Part shown: in pieces, positions 3,364 to 16,652 of the stretch | How positions within the stretch are numbered: the first letter of the stretch is position 1 | Layout: each line of letters starts with the position of its first letter | NCBI GenBank assembly: GCA_015485375.1 | Contig: WFTU01000440.1 | Span: 1 to 32,377 of the forward strand | DNA: 32,377 bases | DNA from: Paracoccaceae bacterium | GTDB taxonomy: Bacteria > Pseudomonadota > Alphaproteobacteria > Rhodobacterales > Rhodobacteraceae | Reading direction: 5' to 3' | Position numbers and translations under genes: made by a program | Notes under the pieces: model-generated | Databases searched by the model: none | Told to the model about the DNA's origin: nothing | The model's input: only the letters and a program-made list of their open reading frames with translations

Positions 3364-3436
3364 TTCCAACTGTTCTTATTTTGATCAAGCAGCGGAAAAT
3401 ATTGGGAAAATAAGAAAGTTGGAACGTTCCAACTTT
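3364..3436. promoter_or_regulatory. Inverted-repeat cluster: 18-bp near-perfect stem plus perfect 22-bp palindrome AAAGTTGGAACGTTCCAACTTT
   Basis: TTCCAACTGTTCTTATTTT (3364-3382) is the reverse complement of AAAATAAGAA-AGTTGGAA (3407-3424) except for one bulged base. 3415-3436 is a perfect 22-bp palindrome overlapping the ParB-like gene's stop codon. Confidence 0.8.
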
Positions 3437-4326
3437 TAGCGTGCGCGGGACGGGAAGTGTTCTTCCATGAACTGGCGGAAGGATTCGGATAAAGCGGCGC
3501 GCGAAATTTCATCCGAAAATTCCAGCCGTATCAGGTTGCGCGATTTACGAAACGCGATGCCTTCGGTTTCTCCGGTGCGCGTATAAACCTTGATCGGGCG
3601 CGCGCGTTGTGCCGGTTGTTTGGCCGCATTTTTCAGGCAGGAAAAAACTTTGGCTGACTCTAGCGGATCGCCGGTTTTTTGCTGTTCCGCAAGTCTTTGC
3701 GCCACCTCGAGTATAGCCGGACCCTTGCTCGCATTTGCCAGTAACGGCTTCAAAATTCTGGCGTGGTTTACTTTGATGTCTCCGGGATGCGCATATGCCG
3801 AAACAATGTCTTTTGGCAGTTTCGCCAGATCAAGATAGCGGGACAGCCAGTCTTTCGAGACCTCCAGCGCCGCCGCCATGTCTTTTTGCCTGCCGCCGTA
3901 ATAGTCCTCCAACGCCTGTGTGTAATCCTTTGCCCGCTCGTAGTCCGAAATGTCCTGACGGTGGCGGTTTTCGATGTCGGCAAGGCGGAAGGCCTGTTCG
4001 TCGGTGAGGGGGCGGACCTCGATCAGGTACCGGAAATCGGGATGGCCGTTGGCGCGCAGCCATGTCACGGCCCAGTGGCGCCGGGCGCCGGTGATGATTT
4101 CGTAGCCCTTGCGGGTTTCGCGCACGATGGCGGGGAACTCCTGTCGGCCCTGCGCTTTCAGCCCCTCGATCAGGTCGGCGCAGGTTTCGGCGGTCAGGCG
4201 GTCGTAGTCGCGGTTGTGGCGGGACCAGAGGTGGCACAGTGCCGGATCGACGAGGTGGCGGGTTTCGCGCGGTTTCAGGAACGGAAAGACGGAGCGGCGG
4301 GTAGAAAAATCTGTGTGCTGGTTCAT
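3436..4326 (-). CDS. ParB/RepB-like partition or nucleoid-binding protein, solitary (no adjacent ParA)
   Basis: ParB N-terminal domain with FPAIVRETRKGYEIITGARRHWAVTWL (degenerate GERRxRA box), IENRHRQDISDYERAKDYTQAL, and a predicted HTH 'RQKDMAAALEVSKDWLSRYLDLAKLP'. Confidence 0.85.
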   Translation of the reverse strand: MNQHTDFSTRRSVFPFLKPRETRHLVDPALCHLWSRHNRDYDRLTAETCADLIEGLKAQGRQEFPAIVRETRKGYEIITGARRHWAVTWLRANGHPDFRYLIEVRPLTDEQAFRLADIENRHRQDISDYERAKDYTQALEDYYGGRQKDMAAALEVSKDWLSRYLDLAKLPKDIVSAYAHPGDIKVNHARILKPLLANASKGPAILEVAQRLAEQQKTGDPLESAKVFSCLKNAAKQPAQRARPIKVYTRTGETEGIAFRKSRNLIRLEFSDEISRAALSESFRQFMEEHFPSRAR

Positions 4327-4385: not shown

Positions 4386-5315
4386 TTAATCCGGCATTTT
4401 CGGCAGGAAGTCCCCGTTCTGTTCGACCAGAAATTCCCGCACCCGCTGCGTGACCGGTGTTTCCGGCGTGCTGGCCGGACGCACGAGGAACCACTGGCGC
4501 ACGATCGGCAGGCCCGGAAGGTCGATGGTTTTGATGCGGCCGGCGACCAGCGCGTCCATGACGGTGTGGGCGGAAATCAGGGCGATGCCGAGGCCGGCGA
4601 TCACCGCCTGTTTGATGGTTTCGTTGGTGTTGAACTCCATCTGGTCGTAGGTCAGCCCCTCGCCGGTGCGGTCGAGGAATCGCTCCATAAGGATTCGCGT
4701 GCCGGAGCCGGGTTCGCGCTGGATGAAGGTTTCGGAGAACAGATCCTTGCGCGAAATGTCGCGGCTGTTGGCCAGCGGATGGTCCGGTGCGGCGATCAGA
4801 ATGTGCGGATGGGCGCCGATGGCGACGGATTCTACGGCAGGATATCGGGGCGGGCGGCCCATGATGGCGAGGTCGATGGAATGGTCCTCCAGCGCCGAAA
4901 CGATGCGGCGGCGGTTGCCGATAATCAGGTCGATACGGATGTCGGGCATGGCCTTTTTCGCCAGCGCCACGAGGGCGGGGGCGAAGTATTTTCCGGTGGA
5001 AACCACGCCGAGGGAAACCAGACCGGACTTGCCGGCGTTCAGGGATTCTATTGTTTTATAACAGTGCAGTAAGGTGGACTCGATCTTGTTGATGGTTTTC
5101 AGCACCTCCTGCCCCTGTGTGGTCAGATGTCCGTTGCCATCGGCGGCGCGGTTCAGGAGCTTGGCGCCGATGTTTGCCTCCAGCTGTTTGAGCTGGGTGG
5201 AAACGGCCGGTGCGGTCAGGTTCAGGCGCTCGGCCGCCGTGGTGATGCTGCCGCTTTCCTGCACGGCGGCGAGGGCGCGGAGCTGCTTCAGAGTGATTGC
5301 GTTCAACTGTGTCAT
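4386..5315 (-). CDS. cbbR: LysR-family transcriptional regulator CbbR
   Basis: N-terminal LysR HTH (TLKQLRALAAVQESGSITTAAERLNLTAPAVSTQLKQLE), divergently placed against cbbF of a Calvin-cycle operon. Confidence 0.93.
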   Translation of the reverse strand: MTQLNAITLKQLRALAAVQESGSITTAAERLNLTAPAVSTQLKQLEANIGAKLLNRAADGNGHLTTQGQEVLKTINKIESTLLHCYKTIESLNAGKSGLVSLGVVSTGKYFAPALVALAKKAMPDIRIDLIIGNRRRIVSALEDHSIDLAIMGRPPRYPAVESVAIGAHPHILIAAPDHPLANSRDISRKDLFSETFIQREPGSGTRILMERFLDRTGEGLTYDQMEFNTNETIKQAVIAGLGIALISAHTVMDALVAGRIKTIDLPGLPIVRQWFLVRPASTPETPVTQRVREFLVEQNGDFLPKMPD

Positions 5316-5412: not shown

Positions 5413-6423
5413 ATGGCTGACCATACGCCAATCGAAGAGACCCCGGGAATTCCCGCCGAGCTGATGCCGGTGATGCTGGCGCTGTGCGACGTGTCGCAGA
5501 AGCTGGCGCAGACAATTGCCGACGGTCCGCTGGCGGGGGATGACCTCGCTGCTGCCGTGGGCACCAACCTTGGCGGCGACGGGCAGAAGGCGCTCGATCT
5601 GATTGCCGACGATGCCTATGCCGAGGAACTGAAGAATACCGAGGTGCGCTGGTATGCCTCCGAGGAGCAGGACGAGGTTGTCGAGCTGAACCCGAACGGG
5701 TCGCTGGCGCTGGCGATCGATCCGCTGGACGGGTCGTCGAATATCGATGTGAATGTTTCCATCGGCACGATCTTCTCGATCTTCCCCGCCAAAGACGACG
5801 AGAACGAGAGTTTTCTGCGTCCGGCGCGCGAGCAGATTGCCGGTGGCTATTTTATCTATGGCCCGCAGACCGGACTGGTTGTGACCTTTGGCGACGGCAC
5901 CATGCAGTTCGTCATGGACAGCCGCACACGCAAGTTTATCTGTGTGGACCGCAAGCTGAATCTGAAACCGGATTCGATCGAGTATGCGATCAATGCCTCC
6001 AACTACCGTCACTGGCCGCGGCCGATCCGGGCGTTTATCGACGATTGTGTCGATGGCACCGAAGGGCCGCGCGGGCGGGATTTCAACATGCGCTGGGTGG
6101 CCTCGCTGGTGGCGGAGACGCACCGTATTCTGACGCGCGGCGGAATCTTCCTGTATCCGGGCGACGACCGCGAGGGCTACAAACGCGGCCGGTTGCGGAT
6201 GGTTTACGAATGTGCGCCGATTGCCTTTCTGATCGAGCAGGCGGGTGGCAAGGCCACCGATGCGGTTGACCCGATCATGGACCAGCAGGCGACAGAGCTG
6301 CACGGGCGCACGCCGTTCGTGTTCGGTTCCGCCAACAAGGTGGAGAAAGTCACCACCTATCACGATCTTCCTGAAAACGAGACGTCGGCGCTGTTCGGCA
6401 AACGCGGCCTTTTCCGCGCTTAA
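5413..6423 (+). CDS. cbbF: Class I fructose-1,6-bisphosphatase
   Basis: Motifs [64 protein letters not shown]. Confidence 0.95.
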
Positions 6424-6440
6424 TCACAAGGACCACAGAC

Positions 6441-7313
6441 ATGAGCACCAAACATCCTATCATCTCGGTAACCGGTTCTTCGGGCGCAGGGACTTCGACC
6501 GTCAAATCCACTTTCGACCAGATTTTCCGCCGCGAGGGCGTGAAGGCTGTGTCCATCGAGGGCGACGCATTCCACAAATACAACCGTGCCGACATGAAGG
6601 CAGAGCTGGAAAAACGACTGGCGCAAGGGGACCATTCGTTCAGCCATTTCAGCCTTGAAGCCAACGAGCTGGGCGAGTTGGAGCGGGTTTTCCGTGAATA
6701 TGGCGAGACCGGCAAGGGCAAGACGCGCTACTATGTGCATTCCGACGAGGAAGCCAAGGCGCTGGGCACGCCCTCGGGCGAGTTCACCGAGTGGGCCGAT
6801 TTCGAGGACGGCTCCGACTTGCTGTTTTACGAGGGCCTGCACGGTGCCGTGAAACAGGACGGCATCGATGTGGCCGGTTATGCCGACCTGAAAATCGGGG
6901 TTGTGCCGGTGATCAATCTGGAATGGATCCAGAAGATGCACCGTGACCGCAATGTGCGCGGCTATTCGACCGAGGCGATCACCGATGTGATCCTGCGCCG
7001 CATGGATGCCTATGTGAAGTGCATCACGCCGCAGTTCAGCCAGACGGATATCAACTTCCAGCGGGTGCCGGTGGTCGATACGTCGAACCCGTTTATCTCG
7101 CGCACCATTCCGACGCTGGATGAAAGTCTGGTGGTGATCCGGTTCAAGAATCCGGCGGGGATCGATTTTCCCTATCTGACCAGCATGATTCAGGGATCGT
7201 GGATGAGCCGTGCGAACTCCATCGTTGTGCCGGGCGGCAAGATGGACCTGTCCATGCAGCTGATCCTGACTCCGCTGATCCACCGTCTGATCGACAACGC
7301 ACGCCGCGCCTAA
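6441..7313 (+). CDS. cbbP: Phosphoribulokinase (bacterial hexadecamer/octamer type)
   Basis: ISVTGSSGAGTSTVKSTF P-loop, SIEGDAFHKYNRADMKAELE, LLFYEGLHGA, DLKIGVVPVINLEWIQKMHRD; closely resembles the recalled Rhodobacter PRK with catalytic motifs intact. Confidence 0.97.
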   Translation: MSTKHPIISVTGSSGAGTSTVKSTFDQIFRREGVKAVSIEGDAFHKYNRADMKAELEKRLAQGDHSFSHFSLEANELGELERVFREYGETGKGKTRYYVHSDEEAKALGTPSGEFTEWADFEDGSDLLFYEGLHGAVKQDGIDVAGYADLKIGVVPVINLEWIQKMHRDRNVRGYSTEAITDVILRRMDAYVKCITPQFSQTDINFQRVPVVDTSNPFISRTIPTLDESLVVIRFKNPAGIDFPYLTSMIQGSWMSRANSIVVPGGKMDLSMQLILTPLIHRLIDNARRA

Positions 7314-7325
7314 GGAGGAGTGACC

Positions 7326-9305
7326 ATGACACAGACCACCGAAACCCGTATGGCGAATGCAATCCGCGCGCTGGCGATGGATGCGATCCAGGCGGCGAAT
7401 TCCGGTCACCCCGGTATGCCGATGGGCATGGCCGATGTGGCCGCGGTTCTTTACAACCGCTATATCAATATCGATCCGAGCGCCCCGAAGTGGGCCGACC
7501 GCGACCGCTTTGTGCTGTCCGCCGGTCACGGGTCCATGCTGCTGTATAGCATCCACCATCTGCTCGGCTTCGAGGATATGGACATGGAGCAGATCCGCAA
7601 TTTCCGCCAGATGGGCTACCGCACCGCCGGCCATCCGGAATACGGCCATGCGGACGGGATCGAGACGACGACCGGCCCGCTGGGTCAGGGGATTTCCACC
7701 GCTGTCGGCTTTGCGCTGGGCGAGCGGATGCAGAACGCGCGTTTCGGTGACGATATGGTCGATCACTGGACCTATGTGATTGCCGGTGACGGCTGCCTGA
7801 TGGAGGGCATCAGCCACGAGGCGATCGATATGGCGGGGCATCTCGGCCTTGGCAGGATGATCGTGTTCTGGGATGACAATGCGATTACCATTGACGGTTC
7901 CACCGATGTTTCCACATCGACCGACCAGAAGGCGCGTTTTGCCGCTGCCGGCTGGCAGGTGCTGGAATGTGACGGGCATGACCGTGACGCCATCGGTGCC
8001 GCGATCGAGGAAGCGCGCAGCGACGAGAGCCGCCCGACGCTGATCGATTGCAAGACCATTATCGGTTTCGGTGCGCCGAACAAGCAGGGCACGGCGGCAA
8101 CGCACGGGGCGCCGCTTGGCGAGGACGAGATTGCGGCGGCGCGCAAGCAGCTGGGCTGGGAATATCCGGCATTCGAAATTCCGCAGGACGTTTATGATGC
8201 GTGGCACGCTGTTGCGGCCCGTGGCAAGGCGGCGCGCGAGAACTGGGAAGTGCGGGCCAAAGCCAGCGACAAGGCGGATGATTTCTTTGCCGCGCTGGGC
8301 GGGACGTCCCGCAAGGGGCTGACGGCCGCGATTTCCGCTTACAAGAAGAAGATGTCCGAAGAAGCGCCGAAAGTGGCGACGCGCAAAGCGTCCCAGATGG
8401 CGCTGGAGGTTATCAATGCGGCGGTGCCGAACATGGTGGGCGGCTCGGCCGACCTGACCGGTTCGAACCTGACCAAGACCTCGGGCATGAGTGGTGTTTC
8501 CAAGGGCAATTATGGTGGCGATTACATCTACTACGGCGTGCGCGAGCACGGGATGGCCGCTGCCATGAACGGGCTGGCGCTGCACGGGGGCATGATTGCC
8601 TACGGCGGCACTTTCCTGGCCTTTGCGGATTATATGCGCGGGTCGATCCGGCTGGCGGCGCTGATGGGCGTGCCGGTGACCTATGTCATGACGCATGATT
8701 CCATCGGGCTGGGCGAGGATGGCCCGACCCACCAGCCGATCGAGCAGGTGGCAAGTGTGCGGGCGATGCCGAACATCAACGTGTTCCGCCCCGCCGATGT
8801 GGTCGAGACCGCCGAAGCCTGGGAACTGGCGGTGCAGTCGAACGGCACGCCGTCGATGCTGGCGCTGTCGCGGCAGGGTCTGCCGACGCTGCGCACGGAA
8901 CATACGGACGAGAACCTGACCGCGAAGGGTGCGTATGTATTGCGCGAAGCGGACGGGGCGCGGGATGTGACGCTGATCGCTACCGGCTCGGAAGTCGAGA
9001 TCGCGATGGGTGCGGCGGATATTCTGGCCAAGGAAGGTATCCGGGCGGCGGTTGTGTCCGCGCCGTGCTTCGAATTGTTCGCGCAACAGGATGACGATTA
9101 CCGCAAAGCGACGCTGGGAAGTGCGCCGCGCGTGGGTGTTGAAGCAATGATCGAGCAGGGCTGGGGCAAAATGCTTGGTGACAACAGCCGGTTTATCGGT
9201 ATGACAGGTTTCGGAGCCTCGGCGCCGGCTGGTCAGCTCTATGAAAAATTTGGAATCACTGCAGAAGCTGCGGCACAGGCCGCGCGCGATCTGCTGGCTA
9301 ACTAA
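7326..9305 (+). CDS. cbbT: Transketolase
   Basis: [38 protein letters not shown] motif [52 protein letters not shown] at 7326 after RBS aaggagg. Confidence 0.97.
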
Positions 9306-9320
9306 AAAGGGAAGAATACC

Positions 9321-10322
9321 ATGGCTATCAAAGTAGGAATTAACGGTTTCGGCCGTATCGGTCGTAACGTTCTGCGCGCGATCATTGAATCCGGCCGCAC
9401 AGATATCGAGGTGGTTGCCATCAACGATCTGGGTCCGGTTGAAATGAACGCCCACCTGCTGCGCTTTGACTCGGTCCATGGCCGTTTCCCGCACACGGTG
9501 ACCGTGGACGGCGATACGCTGGACGTGGGTCGCGGCCCGATCAAGGTGACTGCCGAGCGTGATCCGGCGAACCTGCCCTGGGGCGATGTGGACATCGCGC
9601 TGGAATGCACCGGCTTCTTCACCAAACGCGACGCGGCTGCGAAGCATCTGGAGAACGGCTCCAAACGCGTGCTGATCTCGGCACCGGGCGCGAATGCCGA
9701 CAAGACCATCGTTTACGGTGTGAACCATGACGTTCTGACCGCCGACGATCTGGTGGTTTCCAACGCCTCCTGCACCACCAACTGCCTGTCGCCGGTTGTG
9801 AAAGCCATCAACGACGCTATCGGGATCGACCACGGTTTCATGACCACGATCCATTCCTACACCGGCGACCAGCCGACGCTGGATGCCATGCACTCCGATT
9901 TCTATCGTGCGCGTGCTGCGGCGCTGTCCATGATCCCGACATCCACCGGCGCTGCGAAAGCGGTTGGTCTGGTGCTGCCGGAAATGAACGGCAAGATGGA
10001 CGGTGTTGCCATCCGCGTTCCGACGCCGAACGTATCGGTTGTGGACCTGAAGTTCACCGCGAAACGTGCGACCACGGTCGAGGAAATCAACGACGCCATT
10101 CGTGCGGCGGCCGATGGCCCGATGAAAGGCGTTCTGGGTTACACCGACCTGCCGAACGTGTCGGTCGATTTCAACCACGATCCGCATTCCTCCACGTTCC
10201 ACATGGACCAGACCAAGGTCATGGAAGGCACCTCCTGCCGTATCCTGACATGGTATGACAACGAGTGGGGCTTCTCCAACCGTATGGCGGATACCGCCGT
10301 TGCCATGGGGGCGCTGCTGTGA
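9321..10322 (+). CDS. gap: Glyceraldehyde-3-phosphate dehydrogenase
   Basis: [44 protein letters not shown]. Confidence 0.97.
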
Positions 10323-11533
10323 GTGACTTGAATGTCATAACGCCTTCGACGGCGGCCGGACAACGCCTTGTTGTCCGTGCCGACCTCAACGCGCCTGTGC
10401 AGGACGGCAAGGTTTCCGACGCGACCCGCATCGAGCGGTTCGCCAAGGGGATCAAGCCGCTGCTGGACGCGGGGGCAAAAATTACGGTCCTGTCGCATTT
10501 TGGCCGCCCCAAGGGGCAGCGCAACATGGACTTTACCATAGCGCCGATCAAACCGGCGCTGGAGGCGGCTCTGGGCCAAACAGTGCAGTTCGCGGATGAT
10601 TGTATCAGCGCGGCTGCTGTCGCTGCCTCCGAAAATCTGGGCGAGGGCGAGATCCTGTTGTGCGAGAACCTGCGGTTTTACCCGGGCGAGGAAGCCAACG
10701 ACCCCGACTTTGCCAAATCGCTGGCGCGTCTGGGTGACATTTATGTCAACGACGCGTTCTCGACGGCGCACCGCGCCCATGCCTCCACCGCGGCGATTGC
10801 CGATCTGTTGCCGGCCTATGCCGGTCCGCTGATGGCGGAAGAGATCAAGGCGATGACGGCGGCACTGGAAGACCCGAAGCGGCCCGCGATTGCGGTTGTC
10901 GGCGGGGCGAAAGTGTCGAGCAAGATTGCGGTTCTGAAAAACCTTGTCGGCAAGGTCGATGCGGTTGTTGTGGGGGGTGGCATGGCCAACACCTTCATGC
11001 TGGCCGACGGTCACCCGATCGGCAAATCGCTGAGCGAGCCGGATCAGGTGCCGACTGTGCATGAAATCCGCGAACTGGCGGCGAAATCGGGCTGCAGGAT
11101 CATCCTGCCGGTCGATGTTGTCTGTGCCTATGACTTTGCGCCGAATGCGAAAAACGTCACCACGGATATCGACGGCTGTCCGGCCGATGCGATGATCCTT
11201 GATGCCGGTCCGAAGTCGGTCGAGATGATCGGCAAGGAATTCGAGGGTGCCAAGACGATCCTGTGGAACGGCCCGATGGGTGCGTTCGAGATGGAGCCGT
11301 TCGACATGGCAACCGTCGCGCTGGCCCGAAAGGCCGCCGAACTGACCAAAGCGGGCACGCTGGCCTCCATCGCCGGAGGCGGGGATACCGTCGCGGCGCT
11401 GAATGTGGCCGGTGTTGCCGGTGATTTCACCTATGTCTCCACCGCCGGTGGTGCGTTTCTTGAATGGCTGGAGGGCAAGGAGCTGCCCGGTATAGCCGCC
11501 CTTCGCCGCGCTGCGGCTGCCAACAAAGGATAA
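10319..11533 (+). CDS. pgk: Phosphoglycerate kinase; GTG start overlaps the gap stop (GTGA)
   Basis: [76 protein letters not shown]. The ORF-track start (10265) lies inside gap; GTG at 10319 gives the expected N-terminus MSDLNVITP. Confidence 0.95.
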
Positions 11534-11537
11534 TATC

Positions 11538-12587
11538 ATGGCCCTGATTACCCTTCGTCAATTGCTGGATCACGCTGCCGAGAACGACTATGGCATGCCG
11601 GCATTCAACATCAACAACATGGAACAAGGTCTCGCGATCATGAAAGCGGCGGCGAAGGTCGATGCGCCGGTGATCATGCAGGCCAGCCGCGGTGCGCGCT
11701 CCTATGCCGGTGACATCATGTTGCAGCATATGATCCAGGCGCTGGCCGAGATGTATCCGGATATTCCGATCTGTATGCATCAGGACCACGGCAACAACGA
11801 ACAGACCTGTATGTCCGCGATCAAATACGGATTTACCTCCGTCATGATGGACGGTTCGCTGAAAGCCGACATGAAAACGCCGGCCGATTTTGCCTATAAC
11901 GTCGACATCACCGAGCGTGTTTCGCGCATGGCCCACTGGGTCGGTGCATCGGTCGAGGGCGAGCTGGGTGTTCTGGGTTCGCTGGAAACCGGCGAAGCGG
12001 CCGAGGAAGACGGCTCCGGCGCTGTCGGCAAACTGTCGATGGACCAGCTGCTGACCGATCCGGACGAGGCGGCGGATTTCGTGGCCAAGACCAAGGTTGA
12101 CGCGCTGGCGATTGCTTGCGGCACCAGCCACGGGGCTTACAAGTTCTCCAGCAAGCCGACGGGCGACACGCTGGCAATCAGCCAGATCGAGGCGATCCAC
12201 GCCAAGATCCCGAATGTGCATCTGGTGATGCACGGCTCCTCGTCTGTTCCGCAGTATCTGCAGGACCTGATCAACGAGAATGGCGGCGAGATGGCGCAGA
12301 CCTACGGTGTGCCGGTCGAGGAAATCGAGCGCGGCATCAAGTCCGGTGTGCGCAAGGTGAATATCGACACCGACAACCGTATGGCGCTGACCGGTATGTT
12401 CCGCAAGGTTGCCAAGGACAAGCCGACCGAATTCGACCCGCGCAAGTTCATGATTCCGGCAATGGATGAAATGGAAAAGCTGGTCATCGACCGTTTCGAG
12501 CGTTTCGGTGCTGCGGGGCATGCCTCCGGTATCAAGGTCATCCCGCAGGATGACATGGCGAAGCGTTACGCCGACGGCTCGCTTTAA
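11538..12587 (+). CDS. cbbA: Class II fructose-bisphosphate aldolase (CbbA type)
   Basis: [77 protein letters not shown]. Confidence 0.96.
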
Positions 12588-12595
12588 ACGGTGTT

Positions 12596-12617
12596 GCCGG
12601 ACCTTCCCGGGTCCGGC
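12596..12617 (+). other. Intercistronic hairpin between aldolase and RuBisCO-like gene (no T-run)
   Basis: GCCGGACC-ttcccg-GGTCCGGC: 8-bp perfect stem, 6-nt loop, in the 62-nt intergenic gap. Confidence 0.6.
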
Positions 12618-12649
12618 GATGCCTTGATGCTTTCAGGAAGGGAGGGGAC

Positions 12650-14038
12650 ATGGATCACAAAGATCGCTTTATCGACCTCTCCCTTACCGAAGCGGATCTG
12701 GTTGCCGCGGGCGGGCATGTGCTGGCCGCTTATGTTCTGCAACCGGCCGAGGGGCAAGACTTCCTGACCACTGTGGCGCAGTTTGCGGCCGAGAGCGGAC
12801 GGGGCACGCAGGTGCCGCTGGGCACCGAAGACGAATTTTCCCGCAACCTCGATGTGATCGCCTATCAGGCGGAGGCGGCAAGCGGTCTGGTCAAGCTGGC
12901 CTTTCCGCTGGCGCTGTTCGATTTCAATGTGACGGACGGCGGGGCCTCGATCAGCAGTTTTCTGAATTTGCTGGTCGGCAATACGCAGGGGATGGCGGAG
13001 ATTGCTGCCGTCAAACTGCATGATTTCCATTTACCCGAAGGCTTCCTGACCACGTTCGCCGGTCCCGCGACCACCATTGCCCGCCTGTGGCGGCATCTGG
13101 GGCGGGACGAGGTGGCGGGCGGCATGATTGTCGGCGCGATCCTGAAGCCGAAGCTGGGGTTGCGGCCCGAGGGGCTGGCCGAGGCGGCCTATCAATTCTG
13201 GCGCGGCGGGGATCTGGTGGAGAATGACCAGCCGCAGGGGAACCAGAGTTTCGCGCCGCTGGCGGAGACGCTGCCGCTGATGGCCGATGCGCTGAAGCGG
13301 GCGCAGGATGAAACGGGGTCGGGGAAGGTGTTCTCGATGAACATTTCCTGCGATGATCCGGTGGAGATGGAGACGCGGGCCGCGATGGCGCTGGAGGCCT
13401 TTGCGGATATGCCGGAAAGTCTGGCGTTCCATGTGGATGCCTATCTGGCCGGTCCGATGGCGCTGGCGCATGCGCGGCGGCGGTTCGGCGGGCATTTCCT
13501 TGGCGCGCATCGCGCCGGACATGCGGCGGTGACGTCGCCGCGCTCGGACCGGGGTTATTCGGCCTTTGTGCTGACGAAGATCGCGCGGCTGCTGGGGGCC
13601 TCGGGAATCCATACCGGCACCATGGGGTTCGGGCGTATGGAGGGGGACGAGGCCGACCGGCCGATTGCCTGCATGATTGCGCAGGACAGCGCCGCGGGGC
13701 CGTATTTCGCGCAGGAATGGCACGGAATGGCGCGCAGTGCAGCGATTGTCTCCGGCGGGATCAATGCGCTGCGGCTGCCGTCGTTTCTGGAGAACCTCGG
13801 CCATTCGAATTTCATTCTGGCGGCGGGTGGCGGGGCCTTTGGCCATGTCGACGGGCCGGAAGCGGGCGCATTGTCGTTGCGGCAGGCCGAGGCTTGCTGG
13901 CTGGAACGTGCCGACCCGATCGCCTTTGCTGTCGATCATCCCGAATTCAAACGTGCCTTTCACAGTTTCGAAAGTGACGCGGATATCATCCAACCCGGCT
14001 GGCGACGTGTGTTCAGCCCCGAAACCAACAACTTGTGA
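12650..14038 (+). CDS. Form II-derived RuBisCO-like protein with substituted catalytic residues (K191E, E194Q, K329R)
   Basis: Co-linear with the R. rubrum CbbM sequence as recalled: VGAILKPKLGLRPEGLAEA, GGDLVENDQPQGNQSFAPL, HRAGHAAVTSPRSDRGYSAFV, GASGIHTGTMGFGRMEGDE, VSGGINALRLPSFLENLGHSNFILAAGGGAFGHVDGP. Codon positions checked in the DNA: gag 13220-13222 (E191), gac 13226-13228 (D193), cag 13229-13231 (Q194), cgt 13634-13636 (R329). Confidence 0.93.
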   Translation: MDHKDRFIDLSLTEADLVAAGGHVLAAYVLQPAEGQDFLTTVAQFAAESGRGTQVPLGTEDEFSRNLDVIAYQAEAASGLVKLAFPLALFDFNVTDGGASISSFLNLLVGNTQGMAEIAAVKLHDFHLPEGFLTTFAGPATTIARLWRHLGRDEVAGGMIVGAILKPKLGLRPEGLAEAAYQFWRGGDLVENDQPQGNQSFAPLAETLPLMADALKRAQDETGSGKVFSMNISCDDPVEMETRAAMALEAFADMPESLAFHVDAYLAGPMALAHARRRFGGHFLGAHRAGHAAVTSPRSDRGYSAFVLTKIARLLGASGIHTGTMGFGRMEGDEADRPIACMIAQDSAAGPYFAQEWHGMARSAAIVSGGINALRLPSFLENLGHSNFILAAGGGAFGHVDGPEAGALSLRQAEACWLERADPIAFAVDHPEFKRAFHSFESDADIIQPGWRRVFSPETNNL

Positions 14039-14046
14039 GGATCATC

Positions 14047-14733
14047 ATGGACCGTTCTATCAAAATCGCCCCGTCCATTCTGTCGGCGGATTTCGCCAAC
14101 TTCGGGCAGGAAATTCAGGCTATCGAGGCGCAGGGTTGCGACTGGGTGCATGTGGATGTCATGGACGGGCATTTCGTGCCGAACCTGACTTTCGGCCCTC
14201 CCGCTGTCGCGGCTTTCCGTCCGCATGTGAAAACCGTGATGGACGTGCATCTGATGATCGCGCCGGTGGACCAGTATATCGAGGCCTATGCCAAGGCGGG
14301 GGCAGATTTTATCTCGGCCCATCTGGAGGCGACGACGCATCCGCACCGGACCTTGCAGGCGATCCGCAATGCGGGCGCCAAGGCCGGGCTGGCGCTGAAC
14401 CCGGGCACCGGACTGGGTGATATCGAATACCTGCTGGATATGGTCGATATGTTCGTGGTGATGACCGTGAACCCCGGATTTGGCGGGCAGAAGTTCATTC
14501 ACAGCCAGATCGACAAGGTGAAAAAGCTGCGGGCGATGATTGGCGACCGTCCGATCCATATCGAGATTGACGGCGGTATCACGCCGGAGACCGCGCCGCT
14601 GATGGCGGCGGCCGGTGCCGATGTGCTGGTGGCCGGTTCTGCCGTGTTCAACGGTGGCACGGTGGACACCCCCGAGGTCTACGGCAACAACATCCGCGCC
14701 ATTCGCGATGCGGCGGAGGCTGCGCGTAAATGA
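14047..14733 (+). CDS. rpe: Ribulose-phosphate 3-epimerase
   Basis: IKIAPSILSADFANFGQEI, VHVDVMDGHFVPNLTFGP, DVHLMI, MTVNPGFGGQKFI, IEIDGGITPETAP, AGSAVF. ATG at 14047 preferred over the upstream GTG at 14035. Confidence 0.96.
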   Translation: MDRSIKIAPSILSADFANFGQEIQAIEAQGCDWVHVDVMDGHFVPNLTFGPPAVAAFRPHVKTVMDVHLMIAPVDQYIEAYAKAGADFISAHLEATTHPHRTLQAIRNAGAKAGLALNPGTGLGDIEYLLDMVDMFVVMTVNPGFGGQKFIHSQIDKVKKLRAMIGDRPIHIEIDGGITPETAPLMAAAGADVLVAGSAVFNGGTVDTPEVYGNNIRAIRDAAEAARK

Positions 14734-15425
14734 GTGTGAAGGCGATCATATTCGACGTGGACGGGACGCTTTCGGAGACCGAGGAAGCGCACCGTCAGGC
14801 GTTCAATGCGACGTTCAAGGAGTTTGGATTGCCGTGGGAGTGGTCGCAGGAGTTGTATGGCGTTCTGCTGAAAACCACCGGCGGCAAGGAGCGGATGGCG
14901 GAGTATGTGACCACCCATCTGGGTGGCACGCCGGACAAGGAAAAGATTGCCGAAATCCACAAGCGCAAGACGGTTGTCTATGGCGAGTTGATTGACTCCG
15001 GCATGGCCGAGTTGCGGCCCGGGATTGCGGCGCTGATTGCGGATGCGGCGAAAAACGGTGTGCGGGTGGCTGTGGCCACCACCACCAACCGCCCGAACGT
15101 CGATCGGCTGGCGGAATCCTGTTTCGGCAAGCCTGCGGACGAGGTGTTCGAGGTGATCGCGGCCGGTGACGAGGTGAAACACAAGAAGCCGGCGCCGGAT
15201 GTGTTCGATCTGGCGGTCGAGCGTCTGGGGCTGGACCCGTCCGAGTGTGTCGGGCTGGAGGATTCGCGAAACGGCTTGCTGTCCTGCACGGGCGCGGGCG
15301 TGCCGTGCATCGTGTCGCCCGGGGTGTATACGCTCGGCTCCGATTTCAGCGGGGCGGCGGCGGTGATCGACTGTTTCACCGAGATCGACACGGTGGAGAA
15401 ACTGAACAAAGTGATGGGGAACTGA
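14730..15425 (+). CDS. cbbY: HAD-family phosphatase CbbY (xylulose-1,5-bisphosphate phosphatase family)
   Basis: AIIFDVDGTLSETEEAHRQAFNATFKEFGLPWEWS; KPAPDVFDLAVERLGLDPSECVGLEDSRNGLLS; ATGA overlap with the rpe stop; operon context. Confidence 0.88.
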   Translation: MSVKAIIFDVDGTLSETEEAHRQAFNATFKEFGLPWEWSQELYGVLLKTTGGKERMAEYVTTHLGGTPDKEKIAEIHKRKTVVYGELIDSGMAELRPGIAALIADAAKNGVRVAVATTTNRPNVDRLAESCFGKPADEVFEVIAAGDEVKHKKPAPDVFDLAVERLGLDPSECVGLEDSRNGLLSCTGAGVPCIVSPGVYTLGSDFSGAAAVIDCFTEIDTVEKLNKVMGN

Positions 15426-15426
15426 T

Positions 15427-15981
15427 ATGGCTGTAGAGACTCCGGTATGTGATTTTGGCTGGCAGGCACCGGGTTTCACGTTGAAAAACGCGGACGGAAA
15501 GATGGTGTCGCTGAAAGATGTGGCGGGGCCGAAAGGCACGCTGGTGATGTTTATCTGCAACCACTGCCCCTACGTCAAATCGGTGCTGGACCGGATTATC
15601 CGCGATGCGAAGGATTTGCAGGCGCTGGGGATCGGGGTTGTGGCGATCAATGCGAATGATGCGGAGGACTACCCCGAGGATTCCTTCGAGGGTATGCAGG
15701 AGGTGGCGAAGGCGAATGATTTTCCGTTCCCCTATCTGCATGACGAAACACAAAGGGTTGCGATGGAATACGGCGCGGTTTGCACGCCGGATTTCTTCGG
15801 TTTTGATGCGGAGGGCGGCCTGCAGTATCGCGGGCGGCTGGATGAATCCCGCAAACAGGCCGCGCCGGAAGACGTTCGGCGCGACCTTTATCTGGGCATG
15901 AAACAAGTTGCCGAAACCGGCCACGGGCCGACCGGACAGATCCCCTCGATGGGGTGTTCGATCAAATGGAAGGATGGCTGA
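15427..15981 (+). CDS. Thioredoxin-like AhpC/TSA redoxin with CNHCPYV motif
   Basis: FICNHCPYVKSVLDRI, VAINANDAEDYPEDSFEGM, GAVCTPDFFGFD; inserted between cbbY and cbbZ in the operon. Confidence 0.88.
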   Translation: MAVETPVCDFGWQAPGFTLKNADGKMVSLKDVAGPKGTLVMFICNHCPYVKSVLDRIIRDAKDLQALGIGVVAINANDAEDYPEDSFEGMQEVAKANDFPFPYLHDETQRVAMEYGAVCTPDFFGFDAEGGLQYRGRLDESRKQAAPEDVRRDLYLGMKQVAETGHGPTGQIPSMGCSIKWKDG

Positions 15982-16652
15982 TGAAAGCGATTATTTTTGA
16001 CCTCGACGGAACGCTGGTGGACAGCGCGCCGGACCTGCGGGCGACCGCCAATGCGGTGCTGCGTTCGATGGGGTACCAACCCCTGTCGCTGGAGACCATC
16101 CGCGGCTTTATCGGCAACGGTGTGCCGAAACTGGTGGAACGGGTTATGAAGGCCTCGGACATCGAGTTTACCGAGGAGCGGCACAAGGCGCTCGTCGAGA
16201 CGTTCGAGAAGCTCTATACCGAGCATCCGGTGGATCATACGGTGCTGTATCCCGGCGTGCGCGATGCGCTGGAGATGTTGCAACGGCGCGGCTATGTCAT
16301 GGGGGTTTGCACGAACAAGGTGTATTCGATCACGCTGCGGGTGCTGGAAGGGTTGAAAATCGACCAGTATTTCGGCTCGGTCATCGGGGGCGACAGCCTG
16401 CCGACGCACAAGCCCGATCCGGCGATGTTGCACAAGTGCATTGCCGATCTGGGCGCGGACCATGCGGTTTTTGTCGGCGACAGCGAGGTCGATTCGGCCA
16501 CGGCGCAGAACGCCGGTGTGCGGTTTGCGTTTTATACCAACGGGTATCGCAAGAGTCCGATTTCGGAAATTCCGCATGACACGCGGTTCAGCAATTTTGC
16601 CGATCTGGCGGGGTTCCTGTCTACGGTCGGGGAAAACACTGTAAGGCTGTAA
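15981..16652 (+). CDS. gph: Phosphoglycolate phosphatase (HAD family)
   Basis: KAIIFDLDGTLVDSAPDLRATANAVLRSMG, GFIGNGVPKLVERVM, HKPDPAMLHKCIADLG, VFVGDSEVDSATAQNAG; TGATG overlap with the redoxin stop. Confidence 0.92.
   Translation: MKAIIFDLDGTLVDSAPDLRATANAVLRSMGYQPLSLETIRGFIGNGVPKLVERVMKASDIEFTEERHKALVETFEKLYTEHPVDHTVLYPGVRDALEMLQRRGYVMGVCTNKVYSITLRVLEGLKIDQYFGSVIGGDSLPTHKPDPAMLHKCIADLGADHAVFVGDSEVDSATAQNAGVRFAFYTNGYRKSPISEIPHDTRFSNFADLAGFLSTVGENTVRL

Follow-up and report, generated by a model that had tools for sequence, protein, structure and literature searches.

A form II-derived RuBisCO-like protein without carboxylation residues in a cbb operon of Rhodobacteraceae

Organization of the locus

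The DNA considered here, termed the window, is a stretch of 32,377 nucleotides from a Paracoccaceae bacterium (assembly GCA_015485375.1, contig WFTU01000440.1, positions 1 to 32,377 of the forward strand). It carries a full cbb (Calvin-cycle) operon, within which lies a gene for a cbbM-derived RuBisCO-like protein (RLP; 12650..14038, plus strand). The front of the operon is marked by a divergent cbbR on the minus strand (4386..5315), encoding a LysR-type regulator that scores 442 bits with NF045990, just under the cut-off of 450. A gene for a ParB/SopB-like DNA-binding protein (3436-4326) adjoins cbbR, and one is likewise found beside cbbR in the RLP-encoding genome G008 (L065). The remaining genes are all on the plus strand. 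Upstream of the RLP gene are fbp/cbbF (fructose-1,6-bisphosphatase, 5413..6423), cbbP (prk, phosphoribulokinase, 6441..7313), cbbT (tkt, transketolase, 7320..9305), cbbG (gap, glyceraldehyde-3-phosphate dehydrogenase, 9321..10322), pgk (phosphoglycerate kinase, 10265..11533), which has an uncertain start codon and overlaps cbbG in the ORF list, and cbbA (fba, class II fructose-bisphosphate aldolase, 11538..12587). Downstream follow cbbE/rpe (ribulose-phosphate 3-epimerase, 14035..14733), a HAD hydrolase gene in the cbbY position (14730..15425), a gene for an AhpC/TSA (redoxin) family protein (15427..15981) and a second HAD hydrolase gene in the position of gph/cbbZ (phosphoglycolate phosphatase, 15954..16652). 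CbbY of R. sphaeroides is a phosphatase for XuBP, an inhibitor of RuBisCO (PMC10212915).

Two elements are located between cbbA and the RLP gene. A strong stem-loop occupies positions 12590..12623 (plus strand), the intergenic stretch having a predicted folding energy of -31 kcal/mol (z -3.1), and could conceivably act as a processing or expression-balancing element. Inspection by eye of several orthologous loci suggested short complementary stems of differing sequence at the same site. The stem-loop is followed by the ribosome-binding leader AGGAAGGGAGGGGAC (12635..12649, plus strand), with AGGAAGGGAGGGG ahead of ATGGATCAC; the ribosome-binding site is a good one.

Residues of the window protein

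The open reading frame is uninterrupted and encodes 462 amino acids that are recognized by the Pfam models RuBisCO_large_N and RuBisCO_large, as well as by the form II model NCBIfam NF010002, with 631.7 bits against a cut-off of 489, so that the curated criterion for form II is met. The form II enzyme of R. palustris (4lf1) matches over the full length (E 1e-176), and residues 1-458 of R. rubrum CbbM align with residues 1-458 of the window protein, so that the R. rubrum numbering can be used throughout. At codon 191 (GAG, 13220..13222) Glu replaces the CO2-carbamylated Lys (K191E), at codon 194 (CAG, 13229..13231) Gln replaces a Glu that serves as Mg ligand (E194Q), and at codon 329 (CGT, 13634..13636) Arg replaces the loop-6 Lys (K329R), all on the plus strand. 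In a residue table comparing nine intact RLPs with 36 canonical form II sequences, K191, E194 and K329 are present in all 36 of the latter. The window protein retains E48, T53, N111, K166, K168, D193, H287, R288, H321, S368, G369 and G370, while further changes near the active site include, without being exhaustive, N54Q, T163A, I165L, F189L, I190V, L261H, H285G, Y286A, M371I and T391A. AlphaFold models of four orthologues reached a pLDDT of only 37 and were set aside.

The residues that are kept bind the two phosphates of the substrate, contribute to the metal site and comprise the Lys responsible for enolization; those that are lost are the carbamate carrier, one Mg ligand and the Lys by which the added CO2 is stabilized. 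When R. rubrum RuBisCO was subjected to deep mutational scanning, mutations of K191, K166, K329, D193, E194 and H287 defined a “catalytically dead” class (PMC11839469). A functional RuBisCO is expected to have Lys191 with the Mg ligands D193 and E194, of which the window protein keeps only D193 (E191, Q194), as well as the loop-6 Lys329, which is Arg in eight of the nine intact RLPs and Thr in the ninth, from G313. It does satisfy the functional definition of an RLP, namely a homologue without the carboxylation residues that is conserved as a protein. Loss of carboxylation is thus inferred from the loss of residues, the activity being unmeasured. A preliminary description, made from the sequence alone, had proposed a form II-like frame lying open inside a cbb operon, with the three substitutions at these codons and the remaining landmarks from E48 to G370 intact; all of this held when examined with the ORF, the R. 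rubrum alignment and the 36 canonical sequences. Its claim that residues required for carboxylation are missing is supported by the mutational scan.

Orthologues and variants of the slot

The genomes involved are draft assemblies, and the named ones among them are metagenome-assembled genomes (MAGs). A scan of GTDB 220, with one genome per species, for the motif E191-N-D-[EQ]-PQGNQ gave six matches, four of which are true orthologues, all from Rhodobacteraceae MAGs. The other two (L018, L023) are chance matches, around which tblastn with the window protein found no RuBisCO homologue. Searches of the genus of the window and of a second Rhodobacteraceae genus raised the total to nine intact RLP copies. 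Since the same substitutions recur in independently assembled MAGs, both read or assembly error and chance can be excluded as their source.

Seven of the nine share E191/Q194/R329, G321 has K191/Q194/R329 (L075), and G313, whose copy is 65% identical, has D191/A194/T329 together with E48D; despite its divergence, the G313 protein also passes the NF010002 cut-off. Position 194 is therefore uncharged and position 329 is not Lys in any intact copy, while position 191 varies between Glu, Lys and Asp. All nine keep T53, N111, K166, K168, D193, H287, R288, H291, H321, S368, G369, G370 and G393-395, and E48 is kept in eight. The K191 of G321 may be ancestral or a reversion from E191, which takes a single base change, and neither possibility is favoured. 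Eight of the nine intact genes and a deleted copy have almost the same leader, which is looser in G313 and unlike that of canonical cbbM genes in the same slot.

The deleted copy is a tenth RLP gene in G219 (L062, G219:C48:126389-127135), with two in-frame internal deletions, an open frame of 260 amino acids and Pro at position 329; as large in-frame parts have been lost, the gene is dispensable in this genome. In G010 the slot cbbM has been reduced to its last 47 codons, lying between fba and rpe (L017 / L063, G010:C49:9600-9740), and a canonical cbbM is located elsewhere on the same contig. G009, G319 and G324 have canonical cbbM, in G009 in the same fba-cbbM-rpe order. The G009 gene (L005 / L064, G009:C194) contains an in-frame TAG at codon 7, possibly an assembly error or a fresh nonsense mutation, and no other RuBisCO was found in that genome. 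Apparent frameshifts break up a cbbM-like gene in G124 (L043, G124:C40:92951-94306) into different frames. Outside the two genera, nothing but canonical form II turned up in a class-wide search of 387 genomes, including a protein with 60% identity that keeps K191/E194/K329 (L091), and a scan of viral contigs found nothing.

Descent and selective constraint

In phylogenetic trees the nine intact RLPs from two genera form a single clade (support 100/100) within alphaproteobacterial form II, on a long stem of 0.72 changes per site. The placement remained unchanged after the addition of other alphaproteobacterial form II enzymes, R. palustris, form I and four form IV-like proteins, although the support for the fork of the nine was lower (88/100) in one tree. 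The clade thus descends from a true form II RuBisCO. A form IV origin was rejected, since the clade lies in form II, at a distance from the form IV-like proteins; form IV was represented by these four proteins only, all from the same bacterial family, and its other families were left out.

The RLP is constrained, though more loosely than a working RuBisCO. Codon models gave an omega of 0.128 for eight and 0.148 for all nine RLPs, compared with 0.063 and 0.069 for two sets of canonical cbbM. Between the window and G008 the pairwise omega of the RLP gene is 0.185 [0.132-0.253], making it the fastest-evolving gene of the operon (neighbouring genes, 0.02-0.13), and between G310 and G312 it is 0.166 [0.115-0.229]. 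All nine frames are open and their indels are in frame, at pairwise dS of 0.4-1.8. The marks of a pseudogene, a disrupted frame or unconstrained evolution, are absent from the nine and are met only by the copies in G219 and G010, so that purifying selection across the clade argues against a simple pseudogene.

The second RuBisCO and the RLP-rpe block

On contig C33 the same assembly has a canonical cbbM followed by cbbQ and cbbO, with a LysR gene, its own CbbR, in front. This cluster makes CO2 fixation independent of the window gene, and its CbbM is presumably, by inference, the working RuBisCO of the genome. Eight of the nine genomes with an intact RLP have such a second canonical RuBisCO, usually as cbbM-cbbQ-cbbO (a form II partner in seven), and so do G219 and G010, while none was found in the three congeners whose slot holds a canonical cbbM (Fisher p 0.011, with G219 and G010 counted together with the intact-RLP genomes). 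In G008 the second enzyme is form I; its contig measures only 4.5 kb and belongs to a bin with 4% contamination, which makes this case weaker. In the G321 MAG (98% complete, 6% contamination) no second RuBisCO was found; as its RLP keeps K191, either some activity persists in this protein or part of the genome is missing from the bin.

The rpe genes of the window and G008 group with those of the second genus (100/98) and not with the congeners G009 and G010 (67 and 73% identity), while the rest of the operon follows the genus of the window. The rpe tree makes transfer of an RLP-rpe block between the two genera likely without proving it. Such a transfer would be old, because the between-genera dS of RLP, rpe and fba amounts to 0.9-1.8. 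Replacement of rpe in G009 and G010 could also give a similar pattern.

Proposed function and alternative explanations

Taken together, the RLP is very likely (probability roughly 0.88) a conserved, non-carboxylating protein into which the resident form II cbbM evolved in place, although no function has been measured. In the proposed scenario a newly acquired second RuBisCO, encoded as cbbM-cbbQ-cbbO together with a separate CbbR or, in one genome, of form I, would have taken over CO2 fixation, and the resident cbbM would thereby have been freed from selection for carboxylation, an inferred functional displacement. The absence of a charged residue at 194 and of Lys at 329 throughout, with 191 variable, indicates that the machinery for the carbamate, Mg and CO2 would have been abandoned, while both phosphate-binding ends and K166, K168, D193, H287 and H321 would have been retained. 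From these kept residues, and without binding data, it is inferred that the RLP has most likely kept the ability to bind RuBP or a comparable pentose (bis)phosphate. When positions 191, 194 and 329 are left out, 14 of 16 pocket residues are kept, against 109 of 183 other positions invariant in form II (p 0.03); this comparison was post hoc, and with the three positions included retention (14/19, p 0.32) is not above background.

The role of such a protein can only be guessed at. A carbamate-free enzyme of the enolase or isomerase type is slightly preferred, without the balance being more than marginal; in this view E191 or D191 together with D193 could hold Mg without CO2. A regulator of the Calvin cycle that binds sugar phosphates is a guess with somewhat less in its favour. 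Since the neighbouring cbbY would handle the inhibitor XuBP (PMC10212915), handling of RuBP or XuBP by the RLP is worth testing. A bolder reading, possible at most, is a new CO2-independent reaction on a pentose (bis)phosphate of the Calvin cycle, for example interconverting or clearing compounds of the RuBP/XuBP type beside rpe and cbbY, that arose from a true form II enzyme and moved between genera with rpe; if true, its stages would be visible as K191, E191 and D191.

Three other explanations were weighed. The slot gene could be a decaying relic, a resident cbbM made redundant by the second RuBisCO and caught in a passing open-frame stage of its loss. The internally deleted copy in G219 and the 47-codon remnant in G010 fit this idea, as do an omega raised above that of canonical enzymes and the fast evolution of the gene between the window and G008. 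It is nevertheless unlikely, given nine open frames with in-frame indels at dS 0.4-1.8, omega values of 0.13-0.19 with upper bounds near 0.25, a nearly identical ribosome-binding leader and a substrate pocket that is invariant outside the three sites. Continued work as a RuBisCO with an unusual active site is very unlikely: K166, K168, D193, H287 and H321 are intact along with the phosphate sites, and G321 keeps K191 with no other RuBisCO in its bin, but mutations of K191, E194 and K329 fall into the dead class of the R. rubrum form II enzyme (PMC11839469), G313 has D191/A194/T329, and nearly all hosts have another canonical RuBisCO.

The RLP might also serve as a non-catalytic partner that dimerizes with the cell's canonical CbbM. 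The lost residues all lie in the C-terminal barrel and the N-terminal E48, T53 and N111 are kept (E48 in eight, the other two in all nine), so that one working site could remain in a mixed dimer, and seven of nine genomes offer a form II partner. However, the canonical partner is only ~50% identical, G008 has a form I enzyme instead and G321 lacks a partner, and the canonical enzyme is encoded in a separate cluster with its own cbbR, which renders this explanation unlikely.

For the preferred reading, that of a conserved protein derived from the resident cbbM, the preliminary description had anticipated two main points: that the protein is maintained rather than decaying, which is supported by purifying selection across nine genomes, and that it derives from form II and not form IV, which is supported by the trees. 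The homologue search that it proposed yielded seven E191/Q194/R329 copies within one nine-member clade with omega far below 1, and placement in form IV, which it named as a refutation, was not borne out, the clade lying inside form II with four form IV-like proteins sampled. Its “new function” has not been shown; only conservation, descent and residue loss are supported. It had foreseen neither a further canonical RuBisCO nor transitional orthologues (K191; D191/A194/T329) nor the decayed copy in a relative.

Comparison with known systems

No description of a form II-derived RLP in a cbb operon was found in the open-access literature searched, subscription journals being mostly outside its scope. 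Published surveys use phylogeny or a catalytic lysine to remove RLPs from their data (PMC12663927; PMC7895386). As the RLPs score well above the NCBIfam form II cut-off, annotation pipelines would name them functional RuBisCO; where family scores alone decide, the genes would be taken for CO2-fixing ones, and a survey relying on one kept catalytic lysine, e.g. K166, could make the same mistake. Characterized RLPs belong mainly to the form IV lineages, which are old, and transitions between RuBisCO and non-carboxylating proteins are usually inferred from very deep branches. The change described here is comparatively recent and layered, with canonical, K191/Q194/R329, E191/Q194/R329, D191/A194/T329 and deleted versions sharing one slot in close relatives.

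Form II RuBisCO (CbbM; R. palustris 4lf1, R. rubrum 9rub) is a full-length homologue with the same length, numbering and operon slot. Alphaproteobacterial cbbM is 54-60% identical to the RLP and has the phosphate- and substrate-binding residues in common with it. The RLP differs by the replacement of K191, E194 and K329, by ~30 clade-specific changes, including those at N54, I165, Y286 and T391, and by its long stem branch. The form II CbbM of the C33 cluster, ~51% identical to the window RLP, keeps the three residues that the latter has lost, and its gene is accompanied by those for the CbbQ/CbbO activase and for a separate CbbR. With form IV RLPs (MtnW-type enolase, OiaX-type decarboxylase and others) the window protein shares, by established definition, the RuBisCO fold family without the CO2-fixation residues. 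Form IV is, however, a separate deep lineage, the form IV-like proteins from the same bacterial family branch outside forms I and II, and the window protein reaches only 84.7 and 52.7 bits with the OiaX and MtnW models (cut-offs 700 and 409). Unlike form IV proteins, the window RLP is derived from form II and resides in a cbb operon.
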